Shown here piece by piece: positions 12,108 through 56,004 of a DNA stretch of 64,000 nt. Within the stretch, counting starts at the first letter, position 1; each line of letters opens with the position of its first letter. This stretch comes from Gordius sp. MW1 (Eukaryota; Nematomorpha; Gordioida; Gordea; Gordiidae), in the NCBI GenBank assembly GCA_964036665.1, contig OZ038530.1:4278001-4342000 (forward strand). The letters are read 5' to 3'. The translations under genes were made by a program, and so were the position numbers. The notes under the pieces were generated by a model. It made no database searches, was not told the DNA's origin, and was given only the letters and a program-made list of their open reading frames with translations.

Positions 12108-12343
12108 TGTTAGGATGACCGTACAATATACAACACCAGTTATTTGTAACTACTATATATGAAACAGAGATATTTCGTATTTATTGACTCGGACAGAATT
12201 CAGATGATACCAAGTGCGATTATCGTAATTATATATATAAAACAGCTGTGTTACAAAGAATAGAATATTGTCAATCCGTTACACGTCGAATATATTACAA
12301 GTTATAATACAATCTCTGCATGGAGAAGTTACAATTCCTGACA
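12108..12343 (-). repeat. LTR, 3' copy in element orientation
   Basis: In element orientation it starts TGTCAGG and ends CCTAACA, the TG...CA form typical of LTRs. It has one apparent difference from the 17381 copy (TTATTTG versus TTATTCG). Confidence 0.93.
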
Positions 12344-13051: not shown

Positions 13052-13083
13052 CTAGATAAAATATAAACAGATTATCATATCAA

Positions 13084-24327: not shown

Positions 24328-25615
24328 TTCAATAAATAGAACGATTATAAAGTGAGATATATCTGGCCATTCGAGAGCAGATATTGAATTCAATCCTTCA
24401 ATTAAAAATTAATATTTTAATTCATTCTAAATTAATGACAGCTAACAGATCCCCCTCTAAATATTCCCGGCAATAGCAATTTTAATTACAAAATTTAATT
24501 TCAAATATGTTTTGAATTCCTCGCCTCTTGTAAAAGACGAAGACTTATTAATCATATAATGTCCCTTTTATTTTATATTTAAACTATATTTTCAATATCA
24601 GAGAACGGCATCCCGCGCGACTCGACATATCACCACTCCCATGTAGCATGTACATGTTCATGTACTAATCCACCCTCTCTCTCCCTTCTCTCGTTGCAAT
24701 GCATGCGCAATACCAGATTTAAGTTAAGTACTAAACTAAATATATAAAAAAAATCATGGCACAACAAGGCATGGTGTGGCGTGGGCTGGCTAGGCTCTTT
24801 GTTACATCATTTTACATTCATTTCTTTTTTAACGTACAACATATCAAGGTATGTAGAGGTTGCGAATCATATTATTATAAATAAAATAGATGAAAATTAA
24901 CTTTTTTTTATTATGTCAACTACTAATTAAGTCATAAGCAATTAGAAAATTAAGTTTCTTATTGAACAATAAGCAATAATTTAAATTAAGATGCTTAACT
25001 CATTTTTGTTACTCAGAAAAGTCCGATATTTTTTATGATCCTTATAAGCATAGTAAACGCAAGGTCTAAGTCAACAGGACGTAGAGTGTTGGTGCCTTGT
25101 GAAAGCATAGTAATTAATAGCATGATATGCTTTTTGGAAATACCTTAAGTTTTTCCATTAAATGCCCAGATAACTTAAATAGTAAAACTTACTTACCCAT
25201 GATGGCAAATTTTTTTAAATTGGTAAACTTTCATATTAATATTATATTAATAATACAACTTATTTCTTAAATGAAGTTAAATTAAAAAAATTTATTTTAA
25301 TTGATATGGTATATTAAGACAATTGTTGACCGCAAATCTTCAAAAATATATTTTCGAATATTAGAAAATCTTTGTCATATAATAAGTCAATTTTCAAAAA
25401 AAAAAAATTCAATAGAAAATGTCGATTAAGACATTTGTCACCACTGTGACCGCAAATCTTCCGAAAAATATTTTTTATAATAGTAGAACATCTTTCAGTC
25501 ATATAATAAGTCTAATTTCAAAAAAAAATATTAATTTTAATAGAAAATGTTGATTATGACATTTGTCACCACTGTGACCGCAAAAATTCACAAAAATATT
25601 TTGAAAGGGTTAAAA
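24328..25615. other. AT-rich spacer between inverted minisatellite blocks
   Basis: No gene is seen. 25310-25610 contains about 2.5 tandem copies of a ~125-bp unit marked by GTCACCACTGTGACCGCAAA and a short A-run. The remainder is unique AT-rich sequence. Confidence 0.6.
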
Positions 25616-30812: not shown

Positions 30813-32504
30813 CTTCACAAATTTTTTTTCATAAATAAAACATATTTCACTACCTACTTCTATAATGCATAATAATTAACTATATTTTATAATACTTCTC
30901 ATTATGACGTCACAATGGGAAAAGTTTTAACTCAGTGACGTCATGATACATTTATTTTTATTTTCTTAAATTAAAAGTTCATTACCTAAGTCTAAATACA
31001 CAAATATGATGAACAATATAAATAAATTGATATATTTGCATACCCAACCCAAACGACCAAAAGCAAACCAAAAGGTTAATAATATTATCCACGCAAACCC
31101 TTTAGCTGTTTAGTACACCCAAACCTAAACGCCAAAGGTGCCCCAAAAAAAACACCCAAAACGCTTTGGGTGTTTTTTACGAAAACGCCAAAGCCCTCCC
31201 AGAAAATTCACCTAACACTGAAAAGGTTGGGTGAAAAAAACTCGGGCCTTCGGCCCTCGTTGGAAGGGGGAGAAGGGAAGGGAAGGGAAGAGGGGAAGGG
31301 AAGGGGGGGACGACTCATCTGTACTTCGTATAAATGTATCATATTTGCTATGCAATTTATGGGCGAGAAAGGTGGGAAGGGGCGAGAATGCCTATAGGGG
31401 GGTATTAAATGCCTAATGATTAATTAATTATTTATACAAATTTTCCATTTATAGGCAAAATTTAATATAGGCAAAATGTAATATAGGCAAGGGTTAGATA
31501 TAGTGTTTGCATCTAGTTGCGTATTACATTAGTTTTTATTGCCTTTAGTGATTATGGGCCTAACAAACATTATATTATAAAACATCACAATGTTAAGAAT
31601 TTGCAGAATTGTTGGGAGAAATATTTTGTTGAATTTGAACAATTTTTAATTAAAAAAATCAAAAATTTGGCCAATGGTCATTTTTTCTCTATTGGTCAAT
31701 ACCAACAGATACTCTATAAGTCAATGATAGCCAAAAAAACGGAAAAAAAATTTTGATGCTCACTTTGGCCAATGGTCATTTTTTTCCATTGGTCAGCAGC
31801 CAGCACACGGTAAAAGTGGATATAAATTCATAAGAGTAAAAAAAACGAAAAAAAAATTTTCGAATCACATTTTGGCCAATGGTCATTTTTTCCATTGGTC
31901 AGCAGCCAGGACACGGTAAAAGTGGATACAAATTCATAATAGTCAAAAAAAAAGTTTTCGAATCACATTTTGGCCAATGGTCATTTTATTCCATTGGTCA
32001 GCAGCCAGCGGACGGCCAAAAAATCATAATAGCAATGGTAGGAACAGGAACAATCATAATAGTCAAAAAAAACGAAAAAAATAATTTCGATTCACATTTT
32101 AGCCAATGGTCATTTTTTCCATTGGTCAGTAGCCAGCGGACGGCCAAAAAGTCATAATAGTTATGGTAGTAACAGGAACAATCATAATAGTCAAAAAAAA
32201 CGAAAAAATAAACTCGGATTCACATTTTAAATAATGGTCATTTTTTTCATTGGTCAGCAGCCAGCGGACTGCCAAAAAGTCTTATTATCAATGATAGTAA
32301 CAAGAACAATCATAAGAGTCAAAAAAACTCCGGGATTCTAACCCAAAAACTAGTTAAATTGCATAGCAATTAAAAGTAAACAACTTTTATTTATGTTTAT
32401 TATATAATAAAATGAAACAATAATAGAACAAGCGGACGGCCAAAAAGTCATATTATCAATGGTAGTAACAGGAAAAATATATTAATTTTATTTAACAAAT
32501 AAAA

Positions 32505-38538: not shown

Positions 38539-41500
38539 CTAAACTAATTATTATTAGCTCGGGAGTAAGCGTAATATAAGGCCGCGTATGCAGATGATTG
38601 TTGAGCTATTTTTTTACTTTTTTCCCTATATAAATTGTTTATATATATAATCCATCTATAAAATCATAATATAATTTATAAGGCATCTTACCATCTAACG
38701 GTGGATATAGAAACATGGTGTAATTCGACAATTGCTCTGAAAGAGCGATTGTCAGGTGTAGAATGTGTTATATAATAAGGCATTGGCCATTTATTAATTG
38801 CACATATGTCTCTCAAGGCTAATTTAGGGTTGGCAAAGGTAGATTTATAATTATTAAAATCAAATTTAGAATATCCTTTGTTTCCAATATACAGATCTTC
38901 AGAACACCTCCACGCTCGTTTATCGTAGTGGACGTCATAATATAATACAGATAAATCAGAATCCTTAAACTTCAAATGTGATTTTTTAACTAATTTAATG
39001 AAATATAATTTACATATTTTAAACGTTATTAGTTTTTAGGATGTTTTTAATAAGGAAAGAATCGTCAACATACTCACCTAAAGAAAAGTCAATATTAGGT
39101 AAGTTTTCCTCAATATTAGGCTTCAAAGCTTCACAGGCCCAAATCTGGCTAATAATTAAAAATAAAATTAATTAAAAGGAGTTTTTACCATATGTCACGC
39201 ATACACTGAGATTTTAATAATTTTTGAAATTCTAGAGATTTTCCATCATGGTAAAACATTTGTTGGAGGCAATATTTCGTATTTACAAATGTCATGTCAT
39301 AGGATATCGCCTAAAATATTAATCGTTATTTAAGAATATAATTTTTGAGATTAGAAAGCAAGAAGACAAAATTTACATATTTGATATAATTTCGAATAAC
39401 TGCATCACGCGATACCGTATGCTCGTTAAAAACTGACAAATTTTTCATAGCTGCACGGGCGAGCATTATTGAAGTTGTACCTACATACACAAATTAGCAA
39501 ACTTAGCTTTTATCTCTCAAAAACGTTAAAAGTATATTACCACATTGCCGCGCATAATTAAGTGCGTCCTGACGAGAGCTTATAAGATTAGAGCCACCAT
39601 TAGCTATAACAGAAATCGAAAGACTACGGCCTATTTCATATATAAAATCAGGACGATTTTTAGTTGTGTCTGATTTTTTTTCATCCGGAGTACGACCGTG
39701 AACAGTTATAGCATCTATGCCCGTTCGTTGTAATGCGTGACACGTTTGAAGAGTGGTATTTAAATCAGGTAGCACCCTGATTTTGCAAGATGTGTAAATG
39801 CCTAAATGTATCAACAATTTACAAATAATTTTAACTTATTGAGAAACCAAAATTGTAAAGGCATATATTATTTCTATAATCAAATGTATTAATTACTCAT
39901 AAATAAAACATAAAAATCAAATAAATTGACTTATTTTAAAACCAAAATTCTCAGAGCACATATTATTTTTTATTTAAAATAAAAACAGTTTTATTGCCAA
40001 AACATAGTAATTACAAATTTGAATTTTAAAACTAAAACAACACGAAGCAAATTTTAAATATCAAAGTTCCAAAACAAACCTTTTGGCTTGTTCTCATTAA
40101 CTAAGGCTTTTAAAACATTACAGGCAACCTCATTCTGGGCAATGGATTTTAAAAGTGCAGATCCAATACCAGCTTTTATAGAATAATCTTTAGGACATCC
40201 CATATTTAGATCGATTCCAGCTATGATAGGGCCATCATAACGCTCTGTTTCACCAAAAAATAAGATAAAAAATAGGTTTTTTTATTTTTTGCAAATATTA
40301 ATTTAAAAATCTTACATTTGATTCTTAAATATTTAATATTTAGTGCAATTCTAACCTCTTCAAGTCACAGATTAAGTGTGCAATTAAAGGCAAGTAGTAA
40401 ATGGAGGCAAAATTAGATATAAAACATTCTAGCGAAATACGGGGAAAGTCGAAGGGTACACATAATTTTATTAGCGTCAAGTTTGAGCATAGAGTTATTG
40501 CAAAATTAGATGGGAATAAGGGCTCATTAATATATAAAGAGCATGTGGGAAGTCAAATTTCAATGGGAGATGTTTGTGCCAAGGAGAAAAGATTTTTTCG
40601 CAGCACCTATCTTTTACAAAGTAACAAAAAGATTTCAATTTAGGCGGCATTTCTACCAGCCTCAGTGGTGCAATACTAAGCGGTTTTGATTAATTATGGC
40701 TTTTGCTATATAACCTATTGACCTAACAATGCAATAAATTTTACAAAACTTAGAAATGATTATTTTTTTGTACTGAGTGCTCCAGTAAGGCGCCCCTTAG
40801 TAACTGGTTAACTTATATCCTGTTAAATTAATTGCTATATTAATATAAAAATCGATTATAATCCAATTAATTATTTGTTAACATATTTAATGCTGATCTT
40901 TAAAGCATCGCAGGCTAATTTATAACTTATACCCTGAGACGAACTCAGTTTTCAAAAAGCCCCCCTCCCAAGCATGCTAATTTGTATTTTAAATGCTGAC
41001 TTGCTATGGATGTGGCTAGATATTGTTAAGGAGTGATGCAACACCCTACATTTACAAAAATTGTCGTTTTTATTAGTTTCATCAATAGCATAATTCTCGA
41101 AATAATTTTAATCATTATAATAACCGTTCCATTTTGTAACAAATTATTTTTATTAACTTAGTATACAGGGTGGTATACATTAAATAATTTTAAATAGCCC
41201 TTTTTACATATGGTCATTGTTATTAAAAAATTTGTCATATAAAATATAAAAAAATTGCCGAGTATTGGCTTTATTAAGGTGTAAGTTATACTTATAGACA
41301 AACGAAATTTAATATTGGTAAGAATTGATAAGGTAAAAATTTAGTGTCAGCAAAGATATAAGAGGAGAAAATTTATAAAGAAGCAGTTGACATTTAGTTT
41401 GACAATATAAGCAAAATTTCAGCCCCCCCCCCTTTTCACATGTCTGGAATTAATGCTTGTCCCCTCCAGTGTAAAGCTCTAGCTTCGCCACTACAACCAT

Positions 41501-44500
41501 ATAATTCAAAACGAATCTGTTTTTTTAAACAGATGCTGTGGTTTGCGATCTTGAAATAAAGAAATGCTTTGATGATGATTTTGATGATGTTATAAATGAA
41601 TATGTACCCTCCCAAACATCCATTGATCCCGCATGGCCCAACTCTACAAGCGGCTAACCAAACCAGCATACACACATACGGACAAGTCGTATTGGGTTTA
41701 GACCTTGGTTTGCGACGGGAATTCAAATGGGTATTTTTAGTCGCAAACGTACACACCCCTATAATTGGAGCTGACTTACTGCACCACTATAAGTTAGTTG
41801 TGGACATCAACAATAAACGACTTATAGACAGCACCACACAATTATCGTCGAGAGGAACATCCTCACCACACCAGACGTTCGGCATCCGTGTAGCACTCAG
41901 CAATCACAGCACAAAATTCGATGCAATTCTGCACGAATTTCCATGACTCATATCCCCTCTAAACTTCAATCGACAGATTCCACCCCATGATGTGCTCCAC
42001 CACATTCTGACAAAAGGCCCAGCACAGCACTCACGCCCCAGACGATTGGCGCCCGATAAATTAAGTTCAGCCAAGAAAGAGTTCGAATATATGCTGGAAC
42101 TTGGGATCATCAGAGAGTCAAAAAGTAATTGGGCATCCCCATTACATCTGGCTGCCAAAAAGTCAGGCGACTGGAGACCGTGTGGGGACTATCGCGGGCT
42201 GAACAAAGTCACATTGCCTGATCGGTATCCCATTCCCCACATACATGATTTTTCCGCCAACCTCCACAACAAAACAATATTTTCCAAGCTCGACCTGGTA
42301 AGAGCATATCACAACATTCCAATTGCAGCAGGTGACATCAGCAAAACAGCCGTGACAACGCCATTTGGTTTATACGAATTCACTAGAATGCCCTTTGGTC
42401 TAAGAAACGCGGCTCAGACATTTCAACGGTTCATAGATGAAGTGTTAAGAGGGCTCGACTATGCCTACCCTTATATCGACGATATACTTATAGCTAGCAC
42501 CTCGGAAAAAGAACACGAAAATCACTTAAGGACCGTTTTACAACGACTACAGGACTTTGACCTCCGAATAAGTCCTTTAAAATGCAAGTTTGGAACTCAC
42601 GAACTCGAGTTTCTGGGACATCATATATCAAAAACTGGCATCACTCCACTAATGGATAAGGTCGACGCTATCCGCGAATTTCCACTACCGGACTCCACAA
42701 AGAAGCTTCGCAGATTCTTGGGGATGATAAATTTTTATCGTAGATTCCTACCCGGAATTTCCCGTACCCTTCAACCTTTAACGGACGTGTTAAAGAAACC
42801 AAAAAAATCTCTAACTTTCAACGACGACCAGATAAAAGCGTTCGAAAAAGCAAAATCAGCTTTAGCAGATTTTACCGCACTTAGTTTCTTAGATACAGAT
42901 CCACGAACAGAAATAAGGTTGACTACAGACGCATCGGACACAGCAGTCGGAGCAGTATTGGAGCAGGTAATTTCGGACCAGGTAAAACCAATATCATTTT
43001 ATTCGGTCAAGCTGCAACCAACGCAAACGCGATATAGCACTTTCGGCCGGGAGCTTCTTGCAATTTATTTAGCTATTAAGCACTTTCGCCACTTTTTAGA
43101 AGGTCGAAGTTTCTCCGTGTATACGGACCACAAACCACTAATTTACGCCTTTAACGCTAAACCTGACCAGTATTCACCTAGAGAAACGAGACAATTGGAC
43201 CTAATATCGCAATTTACAACTGATATTCGGTACATCAAAGGTGAAAGTAATACAGTTGCAGACGCGCTCTCTCGGACGGAGGTAGATTCTATCAGGTTAC
43301 CAGAAATGCCCGATCTAGAAGAGATTAGTAGACAACAAATAAATGACGAAACCCTGAGAAACTTAAAGGATTCATCATCTTTGAAATTGCAGTTAGTACC
43401 AATTTCAGGATCAGAGCGAAAAATCCTTTGCGATCTCTCAACCGCCAAACCACGACCGGTAATTCCAGAAACACTCAGAAAAATAGTTTTCGACCATTTC
43501 CACACTATATCACACCCAGGTATACGCGCCACTGTGAAACTAATTACAAATCGGGTAGTCTGGCCGTCAATAAACAAAGACGTTGTGAGATGGGCAAGAA
43601 CTTGTGAAAGGTGCCAACGATGCAAGGTATTTCGACACACCGTTACAGTACCCGGAACATTCGCTAAACCCGACGCCCGTTTTGCCCACATCCACATAGA
43701 CTTGGTAGGGCCACTACCACCATCAAACGGATATACGCATATGTTAACAGCAGTGGACCGATTCACCAGATGGCCCATGGCTATTCCTTTGAATGATACA
43801 TCCACGGAGGTTATCGCAAAAAAAGCTGATAGAACACTGGATTGCGAACTTCGGTGTGCCACATACCATTACCACCGATAGAGGATCACAGTTCCAATCA
43901 TCTCTCTTCCGAGAACTCTCCAATCTCTGTTGCACACATATTAAAACAACCGCCTACCATCCCGCCGCAAACGGACTCGTCGAACGATTCCATAGACAAC
44001 TTAAAGAGTCGTTAAAAGCCGCCGGGGAGACTAAGTGGAACGAAATTTTACCATTGATATTATTAGGATTAGGTTCAACTATCAAAGAAGACATAGGAGC
44101 AACAACAGCAGAATTGGTGTACGGTACGACCTTACGACTACCAGGAGACTACGTCCTAAAAACCGAACCTAACCCATTACAACATCATTTCGTTGACAAG
44201 CTCAGGAGGACCATGGCAAAAATTCCTTACCCCATACCAAAACACCATGCTACAACAAAAGAACAAGTTAGCAGCTACCTGTTCGAAGCAACCCACGTGT
44301 TCGTCAGACACGACGCCGTCAGTAAGCCACTCTCTCCAACGTATGACGGTCCTTACAAAGTATTTAAATATATGTGCGAATTAATTTTGTTTTCTATCTT
44401 TCGTTCGAATAATTCCCTTTCCCGGTTGATAAATTGGAATGGGTTGTCTCTCTTTTTTCCCAGGGACGTGTTTGGGCGAATTTTCTTTATCTCGGCTATT

Positions 44501-47500
44501 TGGCTCTTCATTGCCTGAGGAAGCTTTCTTCATGTATTCTACGCTATCAAAGGGACGACCTTTACCACCCTTTTCCACGTGACAAACAGCTGATGCTTTG
44601 GAGGAACCGGACTGGGTGCAATTGGTAGCTGATATGGGACATAACTTATCGGTCGTCACCACTTTGCATATGGTGTTACCGGTAAAGGTAAACTTAACCG
44701 ACACCTCTTGTTGATGTACCGTCGAGTTATTTTTCTGGGCACCACTTTTTTCACCGGCTGTCGTCGTATGAGCAGATTCAGTTTTTCGGTCTCGATGTGT
44801 TGTGGCTAGAGGCAAAATCTTTTTGGGGGCTTCAGCTTTTTCGTTCTTTACATTCGATTTTGCATCCTCGAGTAATGGTACTGTTTTGGATTTGCCCTCA
44901 ATTTTCTTGTCACCATCGGGTGCCCTCGGTTTTTGCAGAAGCTTGATGGGTGACTTAAGGTTAGGATTGACATCTTTAGCATTATATTCCATTGATGAAA
45001 GTGGTAAAGGCTTTTTGGGTTGGTTTTTAGCGAAATTTCTATCTCCGTATCTCCTATTTCCCCCAACATTATTACCACTTTGTTGAACATGATCCTACTT
45101 TTTCACAAATTTTTCTTTGCCTATATCTTTCTTAGAACTTAAGCCCTCTTTGCTAGATGTTCCGTTATTTGCTTGACGTTGAGGATGATTTTTAGGTGAA
45201 GCCAGTATTTTGGGTATTGGGTCTGTGGTATCGTCAGGACAAGACTGGGTTCCATCTTGTGTAGCATTGCCTTCAGTGGTAGGGGTCAATAACTTGGTTT
45301 TCTTATTCCTCTCTGCTTGTTGACGAGCTATATTATTTTTTCTACGTTCTAAGGCTGCAGCTGCTTTTTGCTCCCTCACACGTTTAGCCTCATTCTTTTT
45401 CTCTAACCTTCTCTTATGTATGTAATCAATAAGGGGTGTTGATTTTTGAATAAATCCACGTTTCAATTCTTGCTCCCGCAATTCAATTTCTTCAACCCAT
45501 TTGTCTAATGGTACAGGTTGATGTTCAATTACCTTTTTAACTTTATCCAATGTTTCCAAAAACGTTTTATAGTCTTCGTCTTCATCTATGGTTCCAGCTT
45601 TTGGGTCCTTTTTGGCAGAAATTTTAGGGATTTTTTGATATGGAGCATATTCCACAATAGCAGGATATTCATTTCCTTTATCATCTAAAAAAACATAGCC
45701 ATCAAACTTCTCCTTAAAAAGCCATATTTCATCTGTATTTACAAAATTAATGTATGCTCTATTGAAAGTTAGAAAACAAAATTAATTCGCACATATATTT
45801 AAATACTTTGTAAGGACCGTCATACGTTGGAGAGAGTGGCTTACTGACGGCGTCGTGTCTGACGAACACGTGGGTTGCTTCGAACAGGTAGCTGCTAACT
45901 TGTTCTTTTGTTGTAGCATGGTGTTTTGGTATGGGGTAAGGAATTTTTGACATGGTCCTCCTGAGCTTGTCAACGAAATGATGTTGTAATGGGTTAGGTT
46001 CGGTTTTTAGGACGTAGTCTCCTGGTAGTCGTAAGGTCGTACCGTACACCAATTCTGCTGTTGTTGCTCCTATGTCTTCTTTGATAGTTGAACCTAATCC
46101 TAATAATATCAATGGTAAAATTTCGTTCCACTTAGTCTCCCCGGCGGCTTTTAACGACTCTTTAAGTTGTCTATGGAATCGTTCGACGAGTCCGTTTGCG
46201 GCGGGATGGTAGGCGGTTGTTTTAATATGTGTGCAACCTAAGAGATTGGAGAGTTCTCGGAAGAGAGATGATTGGAACTGTGATCCTCTATCGGTGGTAA
46301 TGGTATGTGGCACACCGAAGTTCGCAATCCAGTGTTCTATCAGCTTTTTTTGCGATAACCTCCGTGGATGTATCATTCAAAGGAATAGCCATGGGCCATC
46401 TGGTGAATCGGTCCACTGCTGTTAACATATGCGTATATCCGTTTGATGGTGGTAGTGGCCCTACCAAGTCTATGTGGATGTGGGCAAAACGGGCGTCGGG
46501 TTTAGCGAATGTTCCGGGTACTGTAACGGTGTGTCGAAATACCTTGCATCGTTGGCACCTTTCACAAGTTCTTGCCCATCTCACAACGTCTTTGTTTATT
46601 GACGGCCAGACTACCCGATTTGTAATTAGTTTCACAGTGGCGCGTATACCTGGGTGTGATATAGTGTGGAAATGGTCGAAAACTATTTTTCTGAGTGTTT
46701 CTGGAATTACCGGTCGTGGTTTGGCGGTTGAGAGATCGCAAAGGATTTTTCGCTCTGATCCTGTGTGGTGCTGTCTATAAGTCGTTTATTGTTGATGTCC
46801 ACAACTAACTTATAGTGGTGCAGTAAGTCAGCTCCAATTATAGGGGTGTGTACGTTTGCGACTAAAAATACCCATTTGAATTCCCGTCGCAAACCAAGGT
46901 CTAAACCCAATACGACTTGTCCGTATGTGTGTATGCTGGTTTGGTTAGCCGCTTGTAGAGTTGGGCCATGCGGGATCAATGGATGTTTGGGAGGGGGTGG
47001 GATTACGCTAACTTCAGCGCCTGTGTCGACGAGATATTTTCGTTGGGTGGACCGGTCGAATAAATAGAATAGGCGGCTGAAAGTACGGCCGTTTCCCATT
47101 GTCGCCCATATGGGACGGCCCGTCAGTTTTTTTGTTGGGAGTTGGTGTTAAAATTGCATGGCTGCATGCACTTCCTGGCTTCCTTTCCAAATTTATAATG
47201 GTACCAACATGTGTCAGTTGGGCGTTGTCTGGATGATGACCTAGATCTGCCTGACCTTCTCCATGTCGTCCTACTGTCGTTGGGATTGCCTGTTAATTGA
47301 TTTACTCTGAGTTCTAATTGTGACACAGCTTTGATCAGTTCCTGCATTTCGTTTGTTTGAGTATTGGGAATAGGAATATTGGGAGTAGGGTTATTTGGAG
47401 TGAGGTTATAGGGAGTAGCTACTGATGCTAAGCTACTGACTCTGAACGTTTCGTGAATCCTATCAGCGACTTCTGCTATACGATCAAGTGATTGGTCATC

Positions 47501-50497
47501 TCCCATTGTAGCCAAGATGCTTACCACATGTTGGGGTAGCTTATCCATCCAGAGGCTTTTTAAAATCTTTTCGTCCATCACATTATTACCTAAACGAGAT
47601 TTTAAGTATCTTACCAATTGGGATGGGGTGCGGTCTCCTAGGAATATCGAAGAGAATAAATTCCTTATCCTTTTTTCATCACTGTCTCCTAGTCTTTTTA
47701 CGATTGCTTCCTTCAGTTTGTCGTAAGGGGTAATTTCAGGAACCGTGAATATGAGGTCTGCCACCTCTTCCGCGACTTCTGGGGGTAGTGATTCGACTAG
47801 GTAGGAATACTTAGTCTTCTGCGAGGATATGTTGCGTGTGTGAAACACGGCTTCTACCTGTGACAACCATATGCGAATATTTTTAGAATGGAATTCAGGA
47901 ATTCTCACATGAACTGCGCTTTCTCTTGGTTCATTAGAGTCTGGAATTGTTGAGTTTGTTTCCATCACGTCTCAGGTCACCAATGTAATGATTGTTAGGT
48001 AGTTGTTTATTTTCTGTATTTTCACACGCGCGATAATAATGCAAATGAAATATTAATAAACAAATATTGATATTAGCGATGAATGTTATTTGAGATATTA
48101 GCGATGAATGTTATTTGAGATATTAGCGATGAATGTTATTTGAGCGATAAGATGATATTTATCATGACGGAAGGAATTGTTCATGGATGGATGATTTTTA
48201 ATCGACAAGTAAAAGTAAAGTGAATTGTCCGTTCGCTACTTTATCTCGCCAATGTCTAAAACGCCACAAATATATTGATTCTATTTAATTAACTTAATAT
48301 TTAATACAACACAATTAGGACATTTTGCGTAGAAATGTCTAAAGAATAACACATTCTGGAATTACGACAAGGGTTTGCAGATTTCAAAATATTACCTGAT
48401 ACTATGTTGAATGCTTTCCATGATTCTAATCTCATGAATAATCCTTTAATCCACCAATATACTAGAGGATATCTGACCAAGTATTAGTTGGAAGTTATTG
48501 TTTATTTACAAACCAAGGAGGCTTGACTACATAATTGAAAATGGTTCATATCAAATTTGGATATATATTGTGACTACTAACATACTAAACCATCTATTTA
48601 TTATATACATATACTAACTCACTAACCTACTAACAATAATTTATGGGCACAATGAATAATGGCCTCCATTCCATGGAAAAATGGAACCTTATGATTACTT
48701 GGAAATGACAGAAGGAGTAGGAATATTTGATGATATATGGCAAAAGGTAAAACTAATGTCAAACCCAAAGGTAAAAACTGCGAATGTTCTTGTTAATTTT
48801 TAAAAAATGTAAATATTCAAGTAGTAAAATATAATTTAAGCTTATTTTTGTATGTTTTCTTAAATAATTGATAACTATCTATATATTAGATTGTACATAA
48901 ATATTAAAAAATACTTAAATACTATAGCATGCAATTTCTGATATTAAGACTTAATATCTTAACCATCATATTTTATCTTACAAATGTATAAAAATTATTT
49001 AAGCATCTTTAAGTCCAGACTTTTAGTCAAATTAACTCATAGTGGCCAATCCCAATTAAATTCCAGCTGATTTACCAATTGAGAACTCTAATATTATGAT
49101 GTTTTGTTAGTTTTTTAGGCTATTTATTTTATATGAATACAAAATTTAATTAGAATAATATTTATAGGAATTTAGCATCCAAACATTTTGGTGTAACTTG
49201 CATATTTTAATGGAATTTTGTTAGTATTTAATAGTGCCTGTTAAATTATTGAAATAATTTAAAATGTTTTATGCCAATCTATTAAATACCTTATGATTTG
49301 CTCTTAATACAATTATTTTTTGCATATTTATATTACCTTAGCCAAAAAATGTAGGCTTAAACTCTTATTTTGTTATTACAAGATATTTTATAAAATATTA
49401 TATATCCCTACTTAAGTTTATTAGTATTTAACATTTCATATTTTAGTCTACATTATGTAATTTTACTATATATGTAAATGCACCAGGAAAATATTTTTTT
49501 AATTTGTAATCAATATATGACTCTTTCATAAACAATACTTTAATTAAAAATTTTTTACACTTTATCAACTTATTGGAAGTTTATTATGTTAATATCACGA
49601 GTTTGTTTTAAATATAGTCTTTATATATTAGTTTTTAATAATTAATTTTTAATTTAATCTTTTTTTTTTTAGAATTTATCAGCGGCAAGAGAGATATTTT
49701 ACTTTTAAGATATTTATACAGTCTCTAGTTTGAAATCGCTTTAGGGGAAATATAATTTATTTTTTGTAAAAACAAAAACAATCCTCAAGTATTCTTTATG
49801 TCTTAGCCTCCCTTAATCTTGCACTGCTCGCTAAGACTAACTCACACCATCCCTCCTGCTCTGCGCCCTCCTTTATTTAAAAAACATGTTGACATAAATG
49901 CACACATGTGTGCTAAAAACGTTTTGTCGAGAATTCACCCCCCCCCCCTCTATCGACTTCCCACTAAAGGGTCCGTTTAATACCTAACAAACCATCTAGC
50001 AAAATATTTAATATTTAATACTAATAGGCAAATAACTGTTTACCAAGCATAACACATAAGGTTTTTTTCCCTAGTCTTTTTAGAGTTTTTTACAAGTTTA
50101 TTAAAAAGCAGCGTGTAAATTATTGCTTAACAGTTTCTTTATTTATAATTAAGTTATTGAGTATAATGTTATAATCATGGTATAGATATATACATATGGG
50201 CTCGAAATTCAACGCTGCTTTTAATAAATTCGTAAAGAACTCTAAAGAGGCTAGGATAAATAAACAACATTCAAATGTAAGTTTTTGTTTATACTCTTTG
50301 AAAAGGCCACATATGCTCACTTAAGTTACCATATAGTCCTGTCCATCTCGCCCTTTTAATAATAACGCATGTGTTGTTACCATGTCTAAGTTTTACAACC
50401 GACAAAGAAATCACCACGGAAATTATAATATCCCCAGCACAATTTGATCCATCAAGAGCATGCTCATTAATCTAATTTATTTGTGCATTTATTTATA

Positions 50498-50549
<52 letters not shown>

Positions 50550-53500
50550 AAAGTTGATTAACTTTAATTAGGAATTAACTTCAATTAGGAGAAAAATTAT
50601 TTATCTTATAAAAGACAAATAACTGTTTACCAAGCATAACACACTTATAAGGTCTAGGGTTTTTCTTTTTTAAATTTATCCTAGCCTCTTTAGAGTTCTT
50701 TACGAATTTATTAAAAGCAGCGTTGAATTTCGAGCCCATATGTATATATCTATAACATAATTATAACATTATATTCTATAACTTAATTACAAAGTAAAGA
50801 AACTGTTAAGTAATGAGAAACTTTAATATAGAAGGAAATACTCTAGAGCTCCCTCGACATCCTTTAGGCCGAAAGCACTGTGGGCTTAAATTCTAGTAAT
50901 CATACTATCCCGCCTAAACTTTGATCTCGCGAGTCGAACTATACTTAATTTGTTCGGACTAATCAGCCTCCCCCCCTCCCCACAGCCCCTTAATTAAACT
51001 TCTTTAGCCATTATTGGTATACGCCTATTGATACTATTATCTCGGCTCACACCCCTCCCACACACAGCAAGCCACGCCGCTCCCAGGGGCTTTAGGCGTC
51101 ATGTAAGTTATCTGCATGTGCATGATACTTTAATTAATCATCGTCATCATACTAATAACCTCTTAAGCATTTTTACCCCTCTTGATGACAAAGCTTATGC
51201 GTCCGAACACATATGCTAGCTATGTGTTTACGTCCAAGTCGGTGCTAGAATTAATCATCGTCTTCATACTAATACTTAATCAAAGCACTTAAAATTACCT
51301 CACTGAGAATTTTACTTTGCAATCAACATATTCGAGGTATTTAAGCTTCCCCTCCCCCCAAATAACTCTCACGACCCAGCTACATCCATAATACCCTGGT
51401 AATTTCTTTCCTTCGGCCTAATCATTATATGTTGGTAATACTTCTTCTCGACAACTATACTTATATGAGCTATGGTTAAAATCCACCTACTTCCAAATCA
51501 ACCCAGATCAATCGCTGCTAAGTATATTTATCCATGCGCTGCTGCTAGCCTCGCTCTTAGAAGTGTTCTGAAAACTATTACTTAACACTTCGTCATACTA
51601 TTGGTAAGCGTTGCTGTATTTATTGGTAACGTCAGGGCCCTATCCTCAGACTTGCTGAATACTACCCACATTTTCTAATTTAATCTACAACGCATTATTT
51701 CAAAATATATAACACTTAAGAAAGGGTTTAACTCATCCGTCCATAATCTATTCCTCAACCTCGTCCACTATCTTAACCGCTAATGAAGATCAAAATAGCC
51801 TCAATAAATATCAATTCCCTTATGATACAAGGCCAACAACAGATGATGTTAACATTCGCAAGAAATCATAAACTCGACATCTTATGCCTACAACAGACGC
51901 GGATTCCTCATTCTAGAATCGACAGCAACTCTGAGTACACCCTTTACCACGTGGGTTTTACAGACAATTCAGCCACAGGGGTTTCAACATTTATAAGTAA
52001 ACGTCTTTCCGTTCTGAGTATCGACTGGGTAAATGAAAGAATTCTTATAATTAATCTAACAATAGGGATACGTGTGGTGTCGATAAACGTTTATGCCCCT
52101 ACATCTTCCTACAAAACTAAGGTTATTAACGAATTTTTCAGTCTTCTCTCTGACAAAATCAAAAAATTAAGCTGCAAGTCGGTGCCAATTATAATCGGTG
52201 ACTTGAATTCATCCGTCGGGCGCACTGACCGTGACAACCCTAATTTAATAGGCCCTAACACCTTAGGCTCCAACAACAAAAACGGTATTATTCTAAAAAA
52301 ATGGTGCAATACGGGAAATTGGCGAATTACTTCAACATTCTCAGATCTTCTCGGCTGGCCACCTTCCGGAAAAAAAACAACTTGCAATCAAGCCAAATAG
52401 ACCATCTGATCTGTAGGTCAAGACATTTAAAAATCGTCAGAAACTTTCATATAATTTTGGACCCCCTCACTGATGACGCTGACCATTGTGCAATAGCCGC
52501 TGAACTAGTGTTGAAAGCAGCTACCCTACGGGTTCCTTCGACACGCAAATCCCAGAAAATAAGGCCCCAAGGTCTGTCCCAAACCACTGAATTTAGGGAC
52601 CGCCTACACCTAAAAATCGAAAACAACAACCTTTCCGACCTGTCGATAAACGATCACAGCATTAAAATATAAGAAATTTTTACAATTCCCTTGAAGGACC
52701 AGAGTCGAATTAGAACAAAGACATGGTTTTCAGAAAAAACACTTGGGCTCCTCAATACAAAATCTAACATCTACTTTGATAGTGATGAGTTTCCTTTCAA
52801 AAACGCATGCTTATCCGCTCTCAGCAAGCGTATTAAATCCAGCATCAGACAAGACAAAATTGCGTTTATTAACGCAAAAACCACAGAGGCGGAAACCAGC
52901 TATTTACCATCCTAGACAGCCTTAACTATAACACATTCTCCAAACGAGCCTACAACAGCATAAACACAGTTGGCGGCTCCAACGACTCCTTGGCCCAAAC
53001 CAAAGCTTGGGAAGATCATTTCCGATTAATCTTGTCGCCCCAGCCCTTATTCCCTGTAGTGGATATATACAAAGGATTTATCGTAAACTTTAAAGGCCTA
53101 CCACCCCTCCACATCGATACGGATCCCCCCTCTTCATTCGAAATTGACAGAGCTATCAAGTCACTCAAATCCCACAAAGCGGCCGACCCGTCAGGTCTAA
53201 CCTCAGAAGCACTCAAAGTCGACTCTCATATCTCTAGCTCTCTTTTGCGCCACTTGTTTCGGAAAGTTTGGACGAAAGAGATTATACCGGACTCCTGGAC
53301 AATAGGTCACTTGATCAAACTTTTCAAAAAAGGAGATCCATCCAATCCCAACAACTACCGGGGCGTGACTATCATTAACCTGGAATCAAAAATATTCATC
53401 AAGGTTATATACAATCGAATTTACAGCGAGGTGGATGAAATAATTAAAAACAATCAAACAGGGTTTAGGGAGTGCCGTACGACGACAGAGCACATAATAA

Positions 53501-56004
53501 CATTAAGGCACATAATGGATATCTCACGGACAAGCGGTGCCCCCCTGGTTCTTGTTTTTTTAGACATCGCTAAAGCTTTTGACTCGCTGTGCCATCTATA
53601 CATTTGGGAAGCGCTATGCCTATTAGGCTTGCCTAAGAAAATAACTCTCATGATCTTTCTACTCTATGACATGAAACTAGTTATATCCTACCTCCACCAT
53701 AAATCGGAGCCCATACCAGTAACATCGGGTGTCAGGCAAGGTTGCCCGCTGTCCCCTCTCCTCCTTATAATTGCGATGGATCTAATAATGAAGAGATCCA
53801 CACTTCCGACCGATGGTATCAAACTAAATGGCACTATTCTATCATCACTGCTGTTCGCAGACGACATATGTCTAGTGGCCCCTTCTATTTCCAAAGCACA
53901 ACTTATGTTAGACAGGTTCAGCATCCAAGCCAAGCAAGCAGGACTGTTTATAAACCCCGAGAAATGCTCAATGATTCGTATAAACGATTCTTCGAACTCT
54001 ACTCTGCTAGTCAACAAAAACGTAATAAATGCATCTGAAAAAGTCCGTTATTTGGGAGTGGACCTTACTCCAGATACCTACGCCGAAGCTGATGTCGAAT
54101 CGAAGATCCGTCGGACCATGGTCAAATTCTACTCATGCTTAGCGATTTGGCGCTCACGTCAACTGACGCTCCATAAACGTCTGAGGATTTTCAAAGTGGC
54201 TATCCAACCAATTCTCTTATACGGTTGCGAATCTTGGTCACTGAAGGCTCCCAGCTTAAAGAAACTACAAGTCAGTCTCAATAAAATGCTACGTATCGTT
54301 TGCCGGATATTTTACCCGACGAGAATAACCAACGAGGATCTATGGGTGCGCTGCAAAATCGGTCCAATTAAAAACATTCTACTGGCGAGGAAATGGGGCT
54401 TTCTGGCTCATCAAGTACGAAGGAAGGGAACCAACTATTGTCTGTCTTCCCTGTTCTGGCGTCCACCCATGCTAAAAGGTCGCAAATGCAATGGCAGCTG
54501 GCTCTACAAGGTGTTCCGCGATGTCCAAACACTAGGCCATGATTGGAATTCATTGCTGACCATCATGCAAGACAGGAAACTTTGGAAAGACTTCTCAATG
54601 AACCATTTATTGCGGCTCTCTCATTAAGGATCTTCACACGGATTATTCATTTACGACATTATCATTATAGCTTTACATTACTCTCAGGTCAATAGGTATT
54701 ACATATTTACATGTCATAATTACATTGCATATTAATCATTTTATTACAGCATACTCACACACGTTATCACTAACGTGGCCTGATGCGCCATTTGGCGTTA
54801 GAAGGGGCTCAATCTTAGATTGCACTAACTAAGCTCTTGGGCGTCTTCGCGGCAAACATACATACATACATATAATTCAAAACATTTTTACGGATTTAAA
54901 ATTGATCAATTATTAATTAATATGAGAATAATAATAAAAAAGGAAACTGCAAATAACAAAATGTAACTTGTTTTACCCAGTCGGCTGTTTTTAGGATGTT
55001 GAAAATCGTTGTGATAATAACAATTCTGAGGCACTAATTTCCTACTAACCAATACAGCATTATCCGGATCTTTCGTGCCCAATTGAAAGACTAATTTAGA
55101 CGCTTCTATCATAGGATTAGTTCTAAAAACTATGTCATCTTCAAGGTAGGTTGTATTTGAAATGGAATTAAAATCATTTGAGGCCTCATCCACAGTCTCA
55201 TCTATTAGTTGATATAATATAAATATTAAAACAAATTGTAAGTCTGCAAATACGAGATTTTACAGCCCAAACCCCCGGCCTGCAGAAAAAGGCTATTCTC
55301 GATCTGTTGTTGAAATATAATAGATTCCCGAAAAAAATTTAACATTCCCTATATTTTATTAGTCAAAATTTTAAATCACATTTGATAATAGAATGTAAAA
55401 ATAATGACATTGGCTGACAATTTGGTCCGTTATTTATAAATCTTGGGTTTAAACTTAAATGCGTTAGCCGAAGCAACTCTATACATTAAAAATAACAAAT
55501 TATGTTCAAATTAATCAGCCCTAATTTCTATTTTTAGTAAACCATGTCATCGGATACATTGTTTCTGTACAAGTCTCTAAATGTATCAAGGGGGAGAGGG
55601 GAGGGGGGAGAGAGATTTTTGAATCTTGTTGCATCAACATGGTAGTATAAGGTAACGAGAAATTAATAAAAAAAAAATGCTTAGAATAGTGTTGTCAACC
55701 GCTATGAATTAACCTTTTTACATTATATTGGGTATACAGACCTCTAACCGCGATCATAAAATCAAAAGTAAATGTTTAAAAATGTACCCGATTCATTTAG
55801 TTGACCGTTCTCTTTGATTACAAAGTCGTATGTTTGAAGTTTGGTATTCCAATATCTGTGACACCTTAAGAAAAGGCGATCCACTATTTCTTCTGCAAAG
55901 ACGATGTCTGCACCATAATCCAAGGCCAAAAGTCTGGATGGCAATGTGCCAAACCGAACCATGGGAGCAAGGATAAGTTTCTGATCAAAAAAATTCTCCC
56001 CCAT
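38376..56004 (-). CDS. DUS2: tRNA-dihydrouridine(20) synthase, DUS2 family, nine exons
   Basis: FMN-dependent enzyme that reduces uridine 20 in the tRNA D-loop using NAD(P)H. Nine exons: 56004-55788, 55201-55046, 40244-40080, 39801-39541, 39480-39377, 39310-39189, 39148-39078, 38989-38692, 38538-38376. All junctions are GT-AG and the sum is 1557 nt, 518 residues plus TGA (human DUS2 is about 490). Visible family motifs: [20 protein letters not shown] near the start (FMN barrel), [12 protein letters not shown] with catalytic-type Cys141, SCKIRVLP (185-191), VHGR (213-216), VIANGG (244-249), NTKYCLQQM, and a C-terminal dsRNA-binding domain of about 417-487. The dsRBD is characteristic of animal DUS2. 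Intron 2 is 14.8 kb and full of mobile DNA; other introns are 40-586 nt. The last two exon joins are the least certain. The gene looks intact. Confidence 0.9.
38692..38989 (-). CDS. DUS2: DUS2 exon 8 (linker and dsRBD)
   Basis: Encodes [10 protein letters not shown] (linker motif) and the first two thirds of the dsRNA-binding domain: [18 protein letters not shown], then [15 protein letters not shown]. Acceptor AATTAG|TT keeps the frame; donor AGATG|GTAAGA. Confidence 0.85.
39078..39148 (-). CDS. DUS2: DUS2 exon 7
   Basis: Encodes [20 protein letters not shown]. Preceded by a 40-nt intron ending ATTATTAG. Donor TTTAG|GTGAGT. Confidence 0.8.
39189..39310 (-). CDS. DUS2: DUS2 exon 6
   Basis: Encodes [19 protein letters not shown], the helical domain motif. 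Acceptor TTTTAG|GCG, donor ATATG|GTAAAA. Confidence 0.92.
39377..39480 (-). CDS. DUS2: DUS2 exon 5
   Basis: Encodes [17 protein letters not shown] and the following helix to NYIKY. Preceded by a 60-nt intron; donor TAT|GTAAAT in phase 0. Confidence 0.92.
39541..39801 (-). CDS. DUS2: DUS2 exon 4
   Basis: Encodes [30 protein letters not shown] and SVIANGGSN, the FMN phosphate and substrate-binding segments. Acceptor ATTTAG|GC, donor TGTG|GTAATA. Confidence 0.93.
40080..40244 (-). CDS. DUS2: DUS2 exon 3 (catalytic loop)
   Basis: Acceptor GAAACAG|AGCG after a 14.8-kb intron. Encodes [15 protein letters not shown], with the cysteine that acts as general acid in the family, then SALLKS. Donor AAAAG|GTTTGT. 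Confidence 0.92.
40245..41606. other. DUS2 intron 2, left part; unassigned
   Basis: No confident gene. A plus-strand open frame of 80 codons (40401-40643) has no recognisable homology. 41415-41495 is the end of a DNA-transposon-like repeat (reverse complement TTGTAGTGGCGAAGCTAG). After it, a TTTAAACAG|ATGCTGTGG junction is followed by a coding-like acidic stretch, [20 protein letters not shown], which ends where the Gypsy arm begins. Confidence 0.5.
41608..43881 (+). pseudogene. Gypsy pol (PR tail, RT, RNase H, IN part), broken
   Basis: In one frame from the protease tail ([16 protein letters not shown]) there is a TGA at 41944-41946, then 629 open codons from 41992. RT motifs: [44 protein letters not shown] and the catalytic YIDD at residues 161-164. 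RNase H: LTTDAS and YTDHKPL. Integrase: HISHPG/CERCQRC zinc site and [15 protein letters not shown] with the first catalytic Asp. The frame then breaks at an A7 run (43819-43825). The element is not intact as it stands. Confidence 0.9.
43793..44396 (+). pseudogene. Gypsy integrase, downstream frame of the left arm
   Basis: Continues the integrase in another frame: [20 protein letters not shown] (second catalytic Asp), then [18 protein letters not shown] (catalytic Glu) and a C-terminal [12 protein letters not shown]. At that point family homology stops. Relative to the right arm it has a 3-bp deletion (SNLCCTH versus SNLLGCTH). Confidence 0.88.
44381..45769 (-). pseudogene. UPF3: Captured UPF3 fragment between Gypsy arms
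   Basis: UPF3 bridges UPF2 and the exon junction complex in nonsense-mediated mRNA decay. One minus-strand frame of 463 codons starts mid-domain with [39 protein letters not shown] and PYQKIP (end of the UPF3 RNP-type UPF2-binding domain). It continues through the charged helical segment ([19 protein letters not shown]) and ends with [13 protein letters not shown], the exon-junction-binding motif near the family C-terminus, then a TAA. The frame is broken by a single UAG (45095-45097) about midway. The N-terminal half is absent and there is no visible intron, although animal UPF3 genes usually have several here. This suggests an RNA-derived copy; a genomic exon truncated by rearrangement is the alternative. 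Confidence 0.85.
45759..46635 (-). pseudogene. Gypsy integrase, right arm, frameshifted
   Basis: Integrase from the zinc site (CERCQRC) through the core, split into two frames at the same A7 run as the left arm (46352-46358). Frame one ends CATYHYHR; frame two has [18 protein letters not shown] and [12 protein letters not shown]. The last residues ([12 protein letters not shown]) read through the arm-UPF3 joint. Confidence 0.88.
45770..46995 (-). mobile_element. Ty3/Gypsy, right (inverted) arm with internal deletion
   Basis: Reverse complement of the left arm, starting at the base next to the UPF3 homology. RT and RNase H are missing: at about 46762 the sequence passes from the protease tail straight to the linker before the integrase, corresponding to loss of 41841-43407 in left-arm coordinates. 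Short CA identity at the joint suggests microhomology repair. Confidence 0.88.
46707..47099 (-). pseudogene. Gypsy protease with deletion fusion
   Basis: Encodes [14 protein letters not shown], an intact retropepsin D-T-G motif, and [16 protein letters not shown]. At residue ~114 it fuses across the deletion to the pre-integrase linker ([10 protein letters not shown]) and stops. It lies downstream of gag with a small gap in the usual Gypsy order. The fusion peptide is a by-product of the deletion. Confidence 0.85.
47123..47968 (-). CDS. Gypsy gag polyprotein
   Basis: A 281-codon open frame. The capsid-like domain of about residues 20-190 contains [31 protein letters not shown] and [10 protein letters not shown], characteristic of Gypsy gag in invertebrates (Mag-like). 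A low-complexity Asn/Pro/Ile linker is followed by an Arg/Ser-rich patch and a zinc-knuckle-like [18 protein letters not shown] near the C-terminus. It sits just inside the LTR and upstream of the protease. It has no counterpart in the left arm, so the inverted duplication did not include it. Confidence 0.85.
   Translation of the reverse strand: MMETNSTIPDSNEPRESAVHVRIPEFHSKNIRIWLSQVEAVFHTRNISSQKTKYSYLVESLPPEVAEEVADLIFTVPEITPYDKLKEAIVKRLGDSDEKRIRNLFSSIFLGDRTPSQLVRYLKSRLGNNVMDEKILKSLWMDKLPQHVVSILATMGDDQSLDRIAEVADRIHETFRVSSLASVATPYNLTPNNPTPNIPIPNTQTNEMQELIKAVSQLELRVNQLTGNPNDSRTTWRRSGRSRSSSRQRPTDTCWYHYKFGKEARKCMQPCNFNTNSQQKN
47984..48268 (-). repeat. Putative 5' LTR of the Gypsy element
   Basis: On the minus strand the segment begins TGTGGCGTTTTAGAC, ends AATCATTACA, and is followed by TTGGTGACCTGAGACG, a typical primer-binding-site context. 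Within it a 25-bp unit, GATATTAGCGATGAATGTTA-type, is repeated three times (48071-48143). No second LTR is present to verify the limits. Confidence 0.55.
48330..48780 (+). pseudogene. Coding-like fragments of unknown origin
   Basis: Two plus-strand stretches have protein-like composition within AT-rich intron: [20 protein letters not shown] followed by [12 protein letters not shown] (48360-48486) up to a TAG, and [20 protein letters not shown] (about 48675-48745), the latter followed by AAAAG|GTAAAAC. I do not recognise a family. They may be exon relics of a host gene copy or of a transposon. Confidence 0.3.
48781..50029. other. AT-rich intronic DNA, nothing recognised
   Basis: Long A/T runs, a C-run at about 49939-49948, and no coding or element termini seen. 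Confidence 0.6.
50030..50820. repeat. Paired direct and inverted repeat unit around a 50-G run
   Basis: GGCAAATAACTGTTTACCAAG occurs at 50033 and, as direct copy, at 50625. 50073-50112 is inverted at 50211-50253 (AGTTCTTTACGAATTTATTA type). The latter is inverted again at 50684-50730, and ATGGGCTCGAAATTCAACG (50196) pairs with its complement at 50720. The arrangement resembles a palindromic non-autonomous DNA element and a partial second copy in reverse. Confidence 0.65.
50498..50547 (+). repeat. Uninterrupted run of 50 G
   Basis: Fifty consecutive G residues, flanked by TTTATA and CCAAAG. It is intronic relative to DUS2, appearing as C on the transcribed mRNA sense strand. Exact length is likely to be a sequencing or assembly approximation. 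Confidence 0.85.
50850..51782 (+). mobile_element. Probable 5' region of the RTE-like LINE
   Basis: Base composition rises in C and G compared with surrounding intron, and the segment leads directly into the endonuclease ORF. No ORF1 is recognised; stops occur in all frames. The 5' limit is uncertain. Confidence 0.4.
51783..52900 (+). pseudogene. LINE apurinic-type endonuclease, frameshifted
   Basis: Encodes an APE-type endonuclease: [10 protein letters not shown] (first motif), [11 protein letters not shown] (catalytic Glu replaced by Gln in the usual QET motif), [11 protein letters not shown], and [14 protein letters not shown]. The frame shifts near 52300-52390 into [13 protein letters not shown] and [13 protein letters not shown] (the SDH-type end motif). 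A further stop lies near 52671 and another shift near 52915. As written it cannot encode one protein. Confidence 0.8.
52990..54627 (+). CDS. LINE reverse transcriptase (RTE-like)
   Basis: A 545-codon open frame. RT motifs in order: [77 protein letters not shown] and the catalytic FADDICLVA at about residue 290. The C-terminal region [12 protein letters not shown]...[10 protein letters not shown]...[15 protein letters not shown] is typical of RTE-related LINEs. It is preceded by the frameshifted endonuclease, so the element is not functional as assembled. It lies antisense in DUS2 intron 2, ending 160 bp from exon 2. Confidence 0.88.
   Translation: MAQTKAWEDHFRLILSPQPLFPVVDIYKGFIVNFKGLPPLHIDTDPPSSFEIDRAIKSLKSHKAADPSGLTSEALKVDSHISSSLLRHLFRKVWTKEIIPDSWTIGHLIKLFKKGDPSNPNNYRGVTIINLESKIFIKVIYNRIYSEVDEIIKNNQTGFRECRTTTEHIITLRHIMDISRTSGAPLVLVFLDIAKAFDSLCHLYIWEALCLLGLPKKITLMIFLLYDMKLVISYLHHKSEPIPVTSGVRQGCPLSPLLLIIAMDLIMKRSTLPTDGIKLNGTILSSLLFADDICLVAPSISKAQLMLDRFSIQAKQAGLFINPEKCSMIRINDSSNSTLLVNKNVINASEKVRYLGVDLTPDTYAEADVESKIRRTMVKFYSCLAIWRSRQLTLHKRLRIFKVAIQPILLYGCESWSLKAPSLKKLQVSLNKMLRIVCRIFYPTRITNEDLWVRCKIGPIKNILLARKWGFLAHQVRRKGTNYCLSSLFWRPPMLKGRKCNGSWLYKVFRDVQTLGHDWNSLLTIMQDRKLWKDFSMNHLLRLSH
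54628..54886 (+). mobile_element. LINE 3' UTR with (CATA)n tail
   Basis: A 230-bp 3' segment with CGTTAGAAGGGGCTC and CTTGGGCGTCTTCGCGG, ending in CATACATACATACATATA. Simple-repeat 3' tails are usual for RTE-type LINEs rather than poly(A). Confidence 0.75.
55046..55201 (-). CDS. DUS2: DUS2 exon 2
   Basis: Acceptor CTAATAG|ATGAG. Encodes DDIVFRTNP...[17 protein letters not shown], matching the family segment before the catalytic loop. Donor GGTTA|GTAGGA was chosen because it gives the exact family spacing (17 residues) between QLGT and AGID when joined to exon 3. Confidence 0.85.
55202..55787. other. DUS2 intron 1
   Basis: A 586-bp AT-rich intron, GT to AG on the minus strand. It contains a short purine-rich tract GGGGAGAGGGGAGGGGGGAG (about 55590). 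No other feature. Confidence 0.8.
55788..56004 (-). CDS. DUS2: DUS2 exon 1
   Basis: Start ATG at 56004. It encodes the N-terminal TIM-barrel strand [20 protein letters not shown] and [10 protein letters not shown]. Donor G|GTACAT; one nucleotide carries over. Confidence 0.9.

Follow-up and report, generated by a model that had tools for sequence, protein, structure and literature searches.

A spliced UPF3 fragment between inverted Gypsy arms in a DUS2 intron of Gordius sp. MW1, and a possible origin by fold-back reverse transcription

The insert and its parts

How does a spliced piece of a host gene come to lie between inverted copies of one retrotransposon? The question is raised by a locus in a 64,000-nucleotide stretch of the Gordius sp. 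MW1 genome (contig OZ038530.1, positions 4,278,001 to 4,342,000 of the forward strand; hereafter the window, with coordinates counted from its first letter). Positions 41607-48268, inside a large intron of DUS2, form a single composite insert, which runs from a Gypsy arm (+) through an antisense UPF3 retrocopy to an inverted Gypsy arm ending at the tip of a 5' LTR. The inverted structure had been recognised in the initial annotation, but its extent was put at 41607-46995; the insert in fact reaches 48268, where it ends at the 285-bp 5' LTR. The location in a DUS2 intron, also proposed there, is supported by a DUS2 exon at 40081-40242 (-) and by an upstream APMVR-type stretch near 55968 (-) that is assigned by motif only, without a Pfam match. 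An exon-like stretch at about 41505-41606 lies to the left of the insert; no second copy of it was found among the matches from the 40 of 133 candidates scored. Copy numbers throughout are lower bounds, because the genome searches scored 40 of 102, 40 of 133 and 40 of 615 candidates. The intact LTR tip at the end of the insert, the likely target-site duplication and the inverted copies elsewhere in the genome are additions to that annotation. The parts are as follows.

41599..41602, no strand: AATA, candidate left copy of the target-site duplication
41607..44364, + strand: left Gypsy arm, with PR, RT, RNase H and integrase, without 5' LTR and gag
44357..44364, + strand: capture joint, AAAGTATT common to Gypsy and the antisense UPF3 3'UTR
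44365..45769, - strand (sense): UPF3 retrocopy, spliced, 5'-truncated inside an exon, no poly(A)
45764..45769, - strand: loop joint, CTTTC also present in the tail at 44398-44402, flanked by one retained mismatch
45770..45801, + strand: inverted copy of the UPF3 tail, 32 nt, with the last codons, the stop and 16 nt of UTR
45802..46763, - strand: right Gypsy arm, integrase part
46762..46763, - strand: deletion joint of the right arm, 2-nt CA common to both sides
46764..47983, - strand: right arm, PR, gag and leader; gag matches DUF7041
47984..48268, - strand: 5' LTR, 285 bp, TG at 48268-48267 and CA at 47985-47984
48269..48272, no strand: AATA, candidate right copy of the target-site duplication

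The arms belong to a Gypsy LTR retrotransposon, with RT, RNase H and integrase in that order, an LTR bounded by TG..CA and 4-bp duplications in the family. The left arm gives a Pfam match to the zinc-binding integrase domain over its cut-off and one to the rve core under its cut-off. Many near-identical copies exist in the genome, and the element is young and recently active. Mechanical detection of inverted repeats recovers the two arms as three blocks, each 100% complementary as a rounded figure.

43406-43928/46241-46763: 523 nt
43929-44402/45764-46237: 474 nt
41607-41840/46762-46995: 234 nt

About 1.57 kb of RT/RNase H present in the left arm is missing from the right. A base-by-base alignment of the integrase part covers 966 columns and shows a single substitution and a single 3-nt gap between the arms. 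Both stop at the identical Gypsy base, as initially noted, and both carry a private substitution that none of the 27 aligned Gypsy copies has (rows of at least 98% identity and at least 100 columns; the dropped 99-nt row of locus L034 also lacks it), together with a difference in the length of an A run that is absent from all 26 alignments covering that run. The Gypsy part of the left arm stops at 44364 in an 8-nt shared word, recognised against four other Gypsy copies and the native UPF3 3'UTR, whilst the loop joint is a 5-nt fold-back match next to the kept mismatch. The sequence common to the arms beside the breakpoint does contain the last codons and the stop, but its length, first given as about 34 bp, is 32 nt exactly, plus 5 past one mismatch. 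Since the arms share the joint, the 32-nt UPF3 tail and the private substitution, one joint was made once and then copied in inverted orientation, as had been proposed.

The loop piece is indeed UPF3 (PF03467, E 4.3e-33, profile positions 54-171 of 172). It is a pseudogene, truncated at its 5' end and interrupted by one in-frame stop, and its 3' end reaches 16 nt beyond the stop codon, or 24 counting the shared word. Its apparent lack of introns is confirmed by spliced alignment to the native gene on a different contig (G000:C1:25214106-25218915), which removes 10 of 10 introns of the copied span, the last of them 40 nt long. That the native gene might itself be intronless here is thus false. 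Neither a second UPF3 retrocopy nor another Gypsy-UPF3 joint was found in the genome searches, in which 4 of 4 first-look candidates were scored and UPF3 matches lay only at the insert and the native gene. Of 1398 sites compared, 17 distinguish the copy from the native gene (6 synonymous, 11 not, with 21% synonymous expected). This divergence is far higher than that of the left Gypsy arm from its family, which amounts to 5 substitutions in 2761 sites, flagged where the base is shared by at most 10% of 13-29 copies and with site 44365, which is UPF3, left out. If the whole insert came from one event, a divergent source allele is therefore needed, and that such a UPF3 allele lies behind the excess is our guess.

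On the right the insert ends exactly at the LTR tip, with AATA beyond it. On the left, where the LTR is missing, AATA precedes the broken arm and is followed at 41603-41605 by TGT, the three nucleotides with which the LTR begins, and then by one unexplained A; because this end has no LTR, the case for a duplication there rests on the 7 nt before that A. Among 199,735 left/right pairs drawn at random from host DNA nearby, 180 show such a match of a 4-mer plus TGT, and the family duplication is 4 bp in all five copies with both ends read, L035 included. The AATA and TGT before the truncated arm suggest that this insert too came in by its LTR tips and that its left LTR and gag were lost afterwards.

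Inverted loci elsewhere in the genome

Each of two probes gave four inverted pairs and no direct pair within 10 kb, among the 80 matches listed per probe. Random placement, which ignores local clustering of insertions, predicts 0.15 inverted and 0.15 direct pairs (P 1.8e-5); without the window locus three inverted pairs are left (P 4e-4). Within 20 kb there is one direct pair, with one probe. The counts include L055 and L056, and single loci may be nested insertions. The arms of L055 are 85% alike and L056 comes from a more distant family (~69%); as older or of a different family, both were set aside as tests of the model.

At L035 and L054 the LTRs are identical and a target-site duplication is present (AGTT and AAGGTA, respectively), so that in both the inversion preceded integration. 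L054 represents a related subfamily, with pol about 80% alike, and in it an LTR edge abuts inverted RT sequence. Since their LTR order is normal, these loci are cousins rather than copies of the geometry proposed below. L034 is the other palindrome with LTRs outermost; its outer ends lack a duplication (ACGT against ATAG), its interior is mosaic and a further LTR fragment adjoins it on the right.

A proposed origin and its rivals

We think it fairly probable that a single accident of reverse transcription in a Gypsy virus-like particle produced the insert, by a switch of the plus strand to UPF3 mRNA, fold-back and integration of a palindrome. The 3' end of Gypsy plus-strand DNA, in the integrase region, would have used AAAGTATT to pair with the 3'UTR of a spliced UPF3 mRNA packaged in the particle, which would then be copied as an extension up to mid-exon. 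The new 3' end, GAAAGT, may have folded back, with GAAAG pairing to CTTTC in its own new UPF3 tail and the mismatch kept, and the strand could then have copied itself back through Gypsy to the 5' LTR, jumping ~1.57 kb at the 2-nt CA. The resulting double-stranded palindrome, with a 5' LTR tip at both ends, would integrate with a 4-bp duplication of AATA, and a later deletion would take the left LTR and gag and leave TGT. The order of the parts, the splicing, the short words at the joints, the single origin of the arms and the LTR tip on the right can be read from the sequence; strand polarity and the order of the steps, as well as fold-back, palindrome integration and the later deletion, are what we infer. 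Both capture of mRNA with template switching and foldback synthesis of the second arm, as raised in the initial annotation, give the best fit to the lost introns, the short homology at the two joints, and the joint and private substitution common to the arms.

The same capture could have given an ordinary Gypsy-UPF3 provirus that was inverted later in the chromosome, through break-induced fold-back or through template switching in replication. The short words shared at the joints suit DNA repair equally well, the arms differ by two changes and L034 lacks a duplication, but the end of the right arm coincides with an LTR tip beside AATA, AATA also precedes TGT at the broken arm, and L035 and L054 were inverted before integration; we regard a chromosomal inversion as rather unlikely. 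Inverted structures are a known type of artefact, and the present one is read from assembled sequence alone. A palindromic chimeric read is nevertheless improbable, given that the arms differ by the substitution, the 3-nt gap, the 1.57-kb deletion and their outer ends, and share a substitution that the other aligned copies lack.

Autointegration of Gypsy DNA into itself could be proposed by analogy with the known inverted retroviral circles, and the LTR edge against inverted RT in L054 could fit it. None of the three joints inside the window insert carries an LTR tip, and for this insert autointegration was rejected as very improbable. Two separate, opposite Gypsy insertions beside a LINE-made UPF3 pseudogene are scarcely credible, even with many near-identical Gypsy copies in the genome: the arms share their Gypsy break base, UPF3 tail and private substitution, and the shared tail contradicts independent insertions here. 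Nor is there the poly(A) and flanking duplication of a LINE processed pseudogene; the UPF3 copy runs directly into Gypsy 16 nt after its stop, and its far end adjoins its own tail copy, which leads on to Gypsy.

As for fold-back synthesis in the particle, the preponderance of inverted pairs over direct ones suggests a fault that keeps recurring in a recently active element. More tentatively, the Gypsy family may repeatedly make hairpin-type inverted products of reverse transcription that are inserted by its integrase, among them palindromes that end in the same LTR tip on either side, and a host mRNA may form the loop. If so, inverted duplication would count among the regular side pathways of LTR retrotransposition, and fold-back synthesis would be a route by which hairpin-forming loci against retrotransposons could arise; those lying in introns that are transcribed would already supply double-stranded RNA against the Gypsy family. 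Because capture joint, fold-back joint and LTR tip can be read in one young insert, one can argue from sequence how the steps of LTR-mediated gene capture followed one another.

Comparison with known systems

In LTR-mediated retroposition of host mRNA the element parts flanking the copy usually share one orientation, which is not known to be a requirement; the arms here are inverted. The process was reportedly described by Tan et al. in 2016. Full-text searches of an open-licence library, to which Tan et al. 2016 does not belong, found no described case with the same geometry. The circular retroviral DNA with an inverted segment of Shoemaker et al. 1980, which is said to have LTR ends at its joint and to have been attributed to autointegration, resembles the insert as an inverted segment in a reverse-transcription product; unlike these circles, the window insert has no LTR ends at the joint.

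The insert shares with LTR-mediated retroposition, as set out in the available parts of PMC5408686 and PMC9674220, a spliced host mRNA fragment joined directly to an LTR-retrotransposon with microsimilarity at the switch, here a UPF3 copy without its parent's introns and the word AAAGTATT. It differs from the cases in those parts in that the element parts are inverted copies, both with the same joint and a tail piece of the captured gene.

The complex LTR elements made by template switching (PMC1950507) were rearranged during reverse transcription and integrated with a target-site duplication, as is proposed here. They are fusions of two co-packaged elements, and the text of that paper contains no word starting with 'inver'. 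Identical outer LTRs flanked by a duplication are seen at L035 and L054; L034 has no duplication, and the window insert retains one LTR.

Pxyfem, the LTR-integrated PxyMasc retrocopies of Plutella (PMC9674220), is an insect retrocopy that has LTR-element sequence at its flank and shares 4 nt at the point of the switch. It differs in producing silencing RNA from multicopy clusters, and its authors were able to find neither LTRs nor, beyond the far side of the long form, the same element, whereas here an LTR tip remains.

Layout of the insert and its host intron

A single composite insert occupies window 41607-48268, with a UPF3 retrocopy between two inverted Gypsy arms. A DUS2 exon (40081-40242, minus strand) is found to its left and, near 55968, an upstream stretch recognised by motif only to its right, which places it in a DUS2 intron.

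Parts of the composite insert (window coordinates, strand)
41607-44364, +, left Gypsy arm, PR-RT-RNaseH-integrase
44365-45769, -, UPF3 copy, antisense
45770-45801, UPF3 tail piece of 32 nt, sense opposite to the main UPF3 copy
45802-46763, -, right Gypsy arm, antisense integrase
46763, right-arm deletion joint between integrase and PR, about 1.57 kb absent
3' of the deletion joint on the + strand, -, right arm, antisense PR and gag
ending at 48268, -, antisense 5' LTR, last part of the insert

The same intron carries frames that by eye look like the endonuclease and reverse transcriptase of a non-LTR retrotransposon (51777-54627, +), and a shorter second inverted repeat (50142-50261 and 50674-50793; 120 nt, 96%). 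An exon-like stretch behind an AG (about 41505-41606, +) stops at the insert; no second copy of it was found among the genome matches listed. A further LTR-type pol frame of 989 aa, flanked by two more open frames, was picked out by eye from the frame list at 12329-17247 (-), and about 24000-31000 appears by eye to be repetitive, several of its translated frames being open as Gly/Pro-rich peptides.

Origin of the UPF3 piece and of the two arms

The native UPF3 gene lies on a different contig (C1:25214106-25218915), and a search of the genome (212 Mb, 12 contigs) gave UPF3 matches in the composite insert and the native gene and nowhere else. Spliced alignment of the copy to the native gene needs 10 introns. 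The copy starts inside an exon and ends 16 nt past the stop codon (24 including the word shared at the capture joint), where poly(A) is absent. The piece is thus a partial mRNA copy, without the hallmarks of LINE-made copies. It differs from the native gene at 17 of 1398 aligned sites (6 synonymous, 11 not, two of the latter jointly making one stop), a divergence several times higher than that of the Gypsy arm from its family (5/2761).

A substitution common to both arms (44072/46094) is absent from all 27 aligned Gypsy copies, and a common A-run length difference from all 26 alignments spanning the run, although in these and the following counts rearranged copies, such as the inverted Gypsy locus L035, may give more than one row. 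Between the arms there is one substitution, where the right arm is the odd one against 26/26 copies, and one 3-nt gap, where the left arm is the odd one, again against 26/26. Their sequences indicate that both arms have one origin.

Joints, ends and a proposed path of formation

At the capture joint, AAAGTATT is common to Gypsy and the antisense UPF3 3'UTR, exactly at the transition; six Gypsy loci were taken for comparison, and the normal continuation is present in all four that were readable in orientation. At its far end UPF3 is followed by a second copy of its own tail. Here a strand ending GAAAGT could pair, through GAAAG, with CTTTC of its own tail (44398-44402), which would leave one mismatch, still visible in the sequence. 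The right-arm deletion joint has CA common to both sides.

The simplest single path would be extension of a Gypsy plus strand along UPF3 mRNA, folding back of the extended strand onto itself, and integration of the fold-back product. With the opposite polarity, a second molecule with an identical joint would probably be required.

Target-site duplications in this Gypsy family are 4 bp in 5/5 copies with both flanks read (ACCT, CTGG, ATAT, ATAT and, at L035, AGTT), a count that omits three more pairs tried, in which the outer 3' end was not readable. On its right the insert stops at the precise LTR tip, with AATA as the next four bases. On its left it is broken inside PR; the bases leading up to the break are AATA, TGT, which matches the start of the LTR over three bases, and a single unexplained A. 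In nearby host DNA, 180 of 199,735 random pairs contained, inside 12 nt, TGT together with a 4-mer drawn from another place; AATATG is present in 21 of 10,987 host 12-mers and AATATGT in none. On this evidence the insert can be read as an integrated palindrome whose two ends were LTR tips, its left side being trimmed later.

Other inverted copies and the order of events

Two short Gypsy probes, with 80 matches listed for each, both gave 4 inverted and 0 direct pairs within 10 kb among those matches, against a random expectation of 0.15 of either kind (P 1.8e-5); with the window left out, 3 inverted pairs remain (P 4e-4). Within 20 kb there are still 4 inverted pairs for each probe among the matches listed, and one direct pair for the PR probe. 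The two probes together mark six loci among these matches, the window and L035 being found by both.

Inverted Gypsy-type loci compared
G000:C1:21985500-21995000, L035
G000:C1:8613500-8623400, L054, related Gypsy subfamily
G000:C4:16149900-16159300, L034, second Gypsy palindrome
G000:C6:3618200-3628100, L056, more distant Gypsy family

L035 runs LTR, gag, inverted integrase-to-gag, 53-nt poly-T, 32-nt integrase bit, then gag to LTR; its LTRs are identical (288/288), with AGTT on either side. In L054, LTRs identical across 382 bp enclose two inverted arms (1731 bp, 99.1%) with a 139-bp loop between them, and the flanking duplication, AAGGTA, is 6 bp rather than the 4 of the window's family. Since both loci have identical LTRs and flanking duplications, their sequences indicate that inversion preceded integration. 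The L035 poly-T (3999-4051) marks the point where the inverted duplication turns, and at this place the element itself seems to carry a short A run; the T run may come from slippage during switching or from faulty assembly. In L054, inverted RT directly adjoins the LTR edge.

L034 is a palindrome (3321 bp, 99.7%) with its 5' LTRs outermost, around a mosaic centre that combines a complete 3' LTR, a U3 piece in inverted orientation, and bits of RT, integrase and gag; its right edge adjoins an additional LTR fragment, and no matching duplication was found at its ends. The model is tested neither by L055, another inverted pair with arms at 85%, nor by L056, a 2.5-kb inverted repeat (98.1% arms) whose spacer contains tandem repeats.

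The main rival explanation is DNA-level fold-back following integration. The ending of the right arm at the LTR tip, the AATA/TGT remnant at the left end, and the examples of L035 and L054 make it less likely.

Among the titles and abstract openings listed from an open-licence library, none described an element whose inverted arms enclose a host mRNA, and passages of PMC5445492 and PMC8708047 gave nothing relevant. LTR-mediated retroposition with microsimilarity is established, as are complex elements made by template switching (PMC5408686, PMC9674220, PMC1950507, PMC13317346, PMC12789967).
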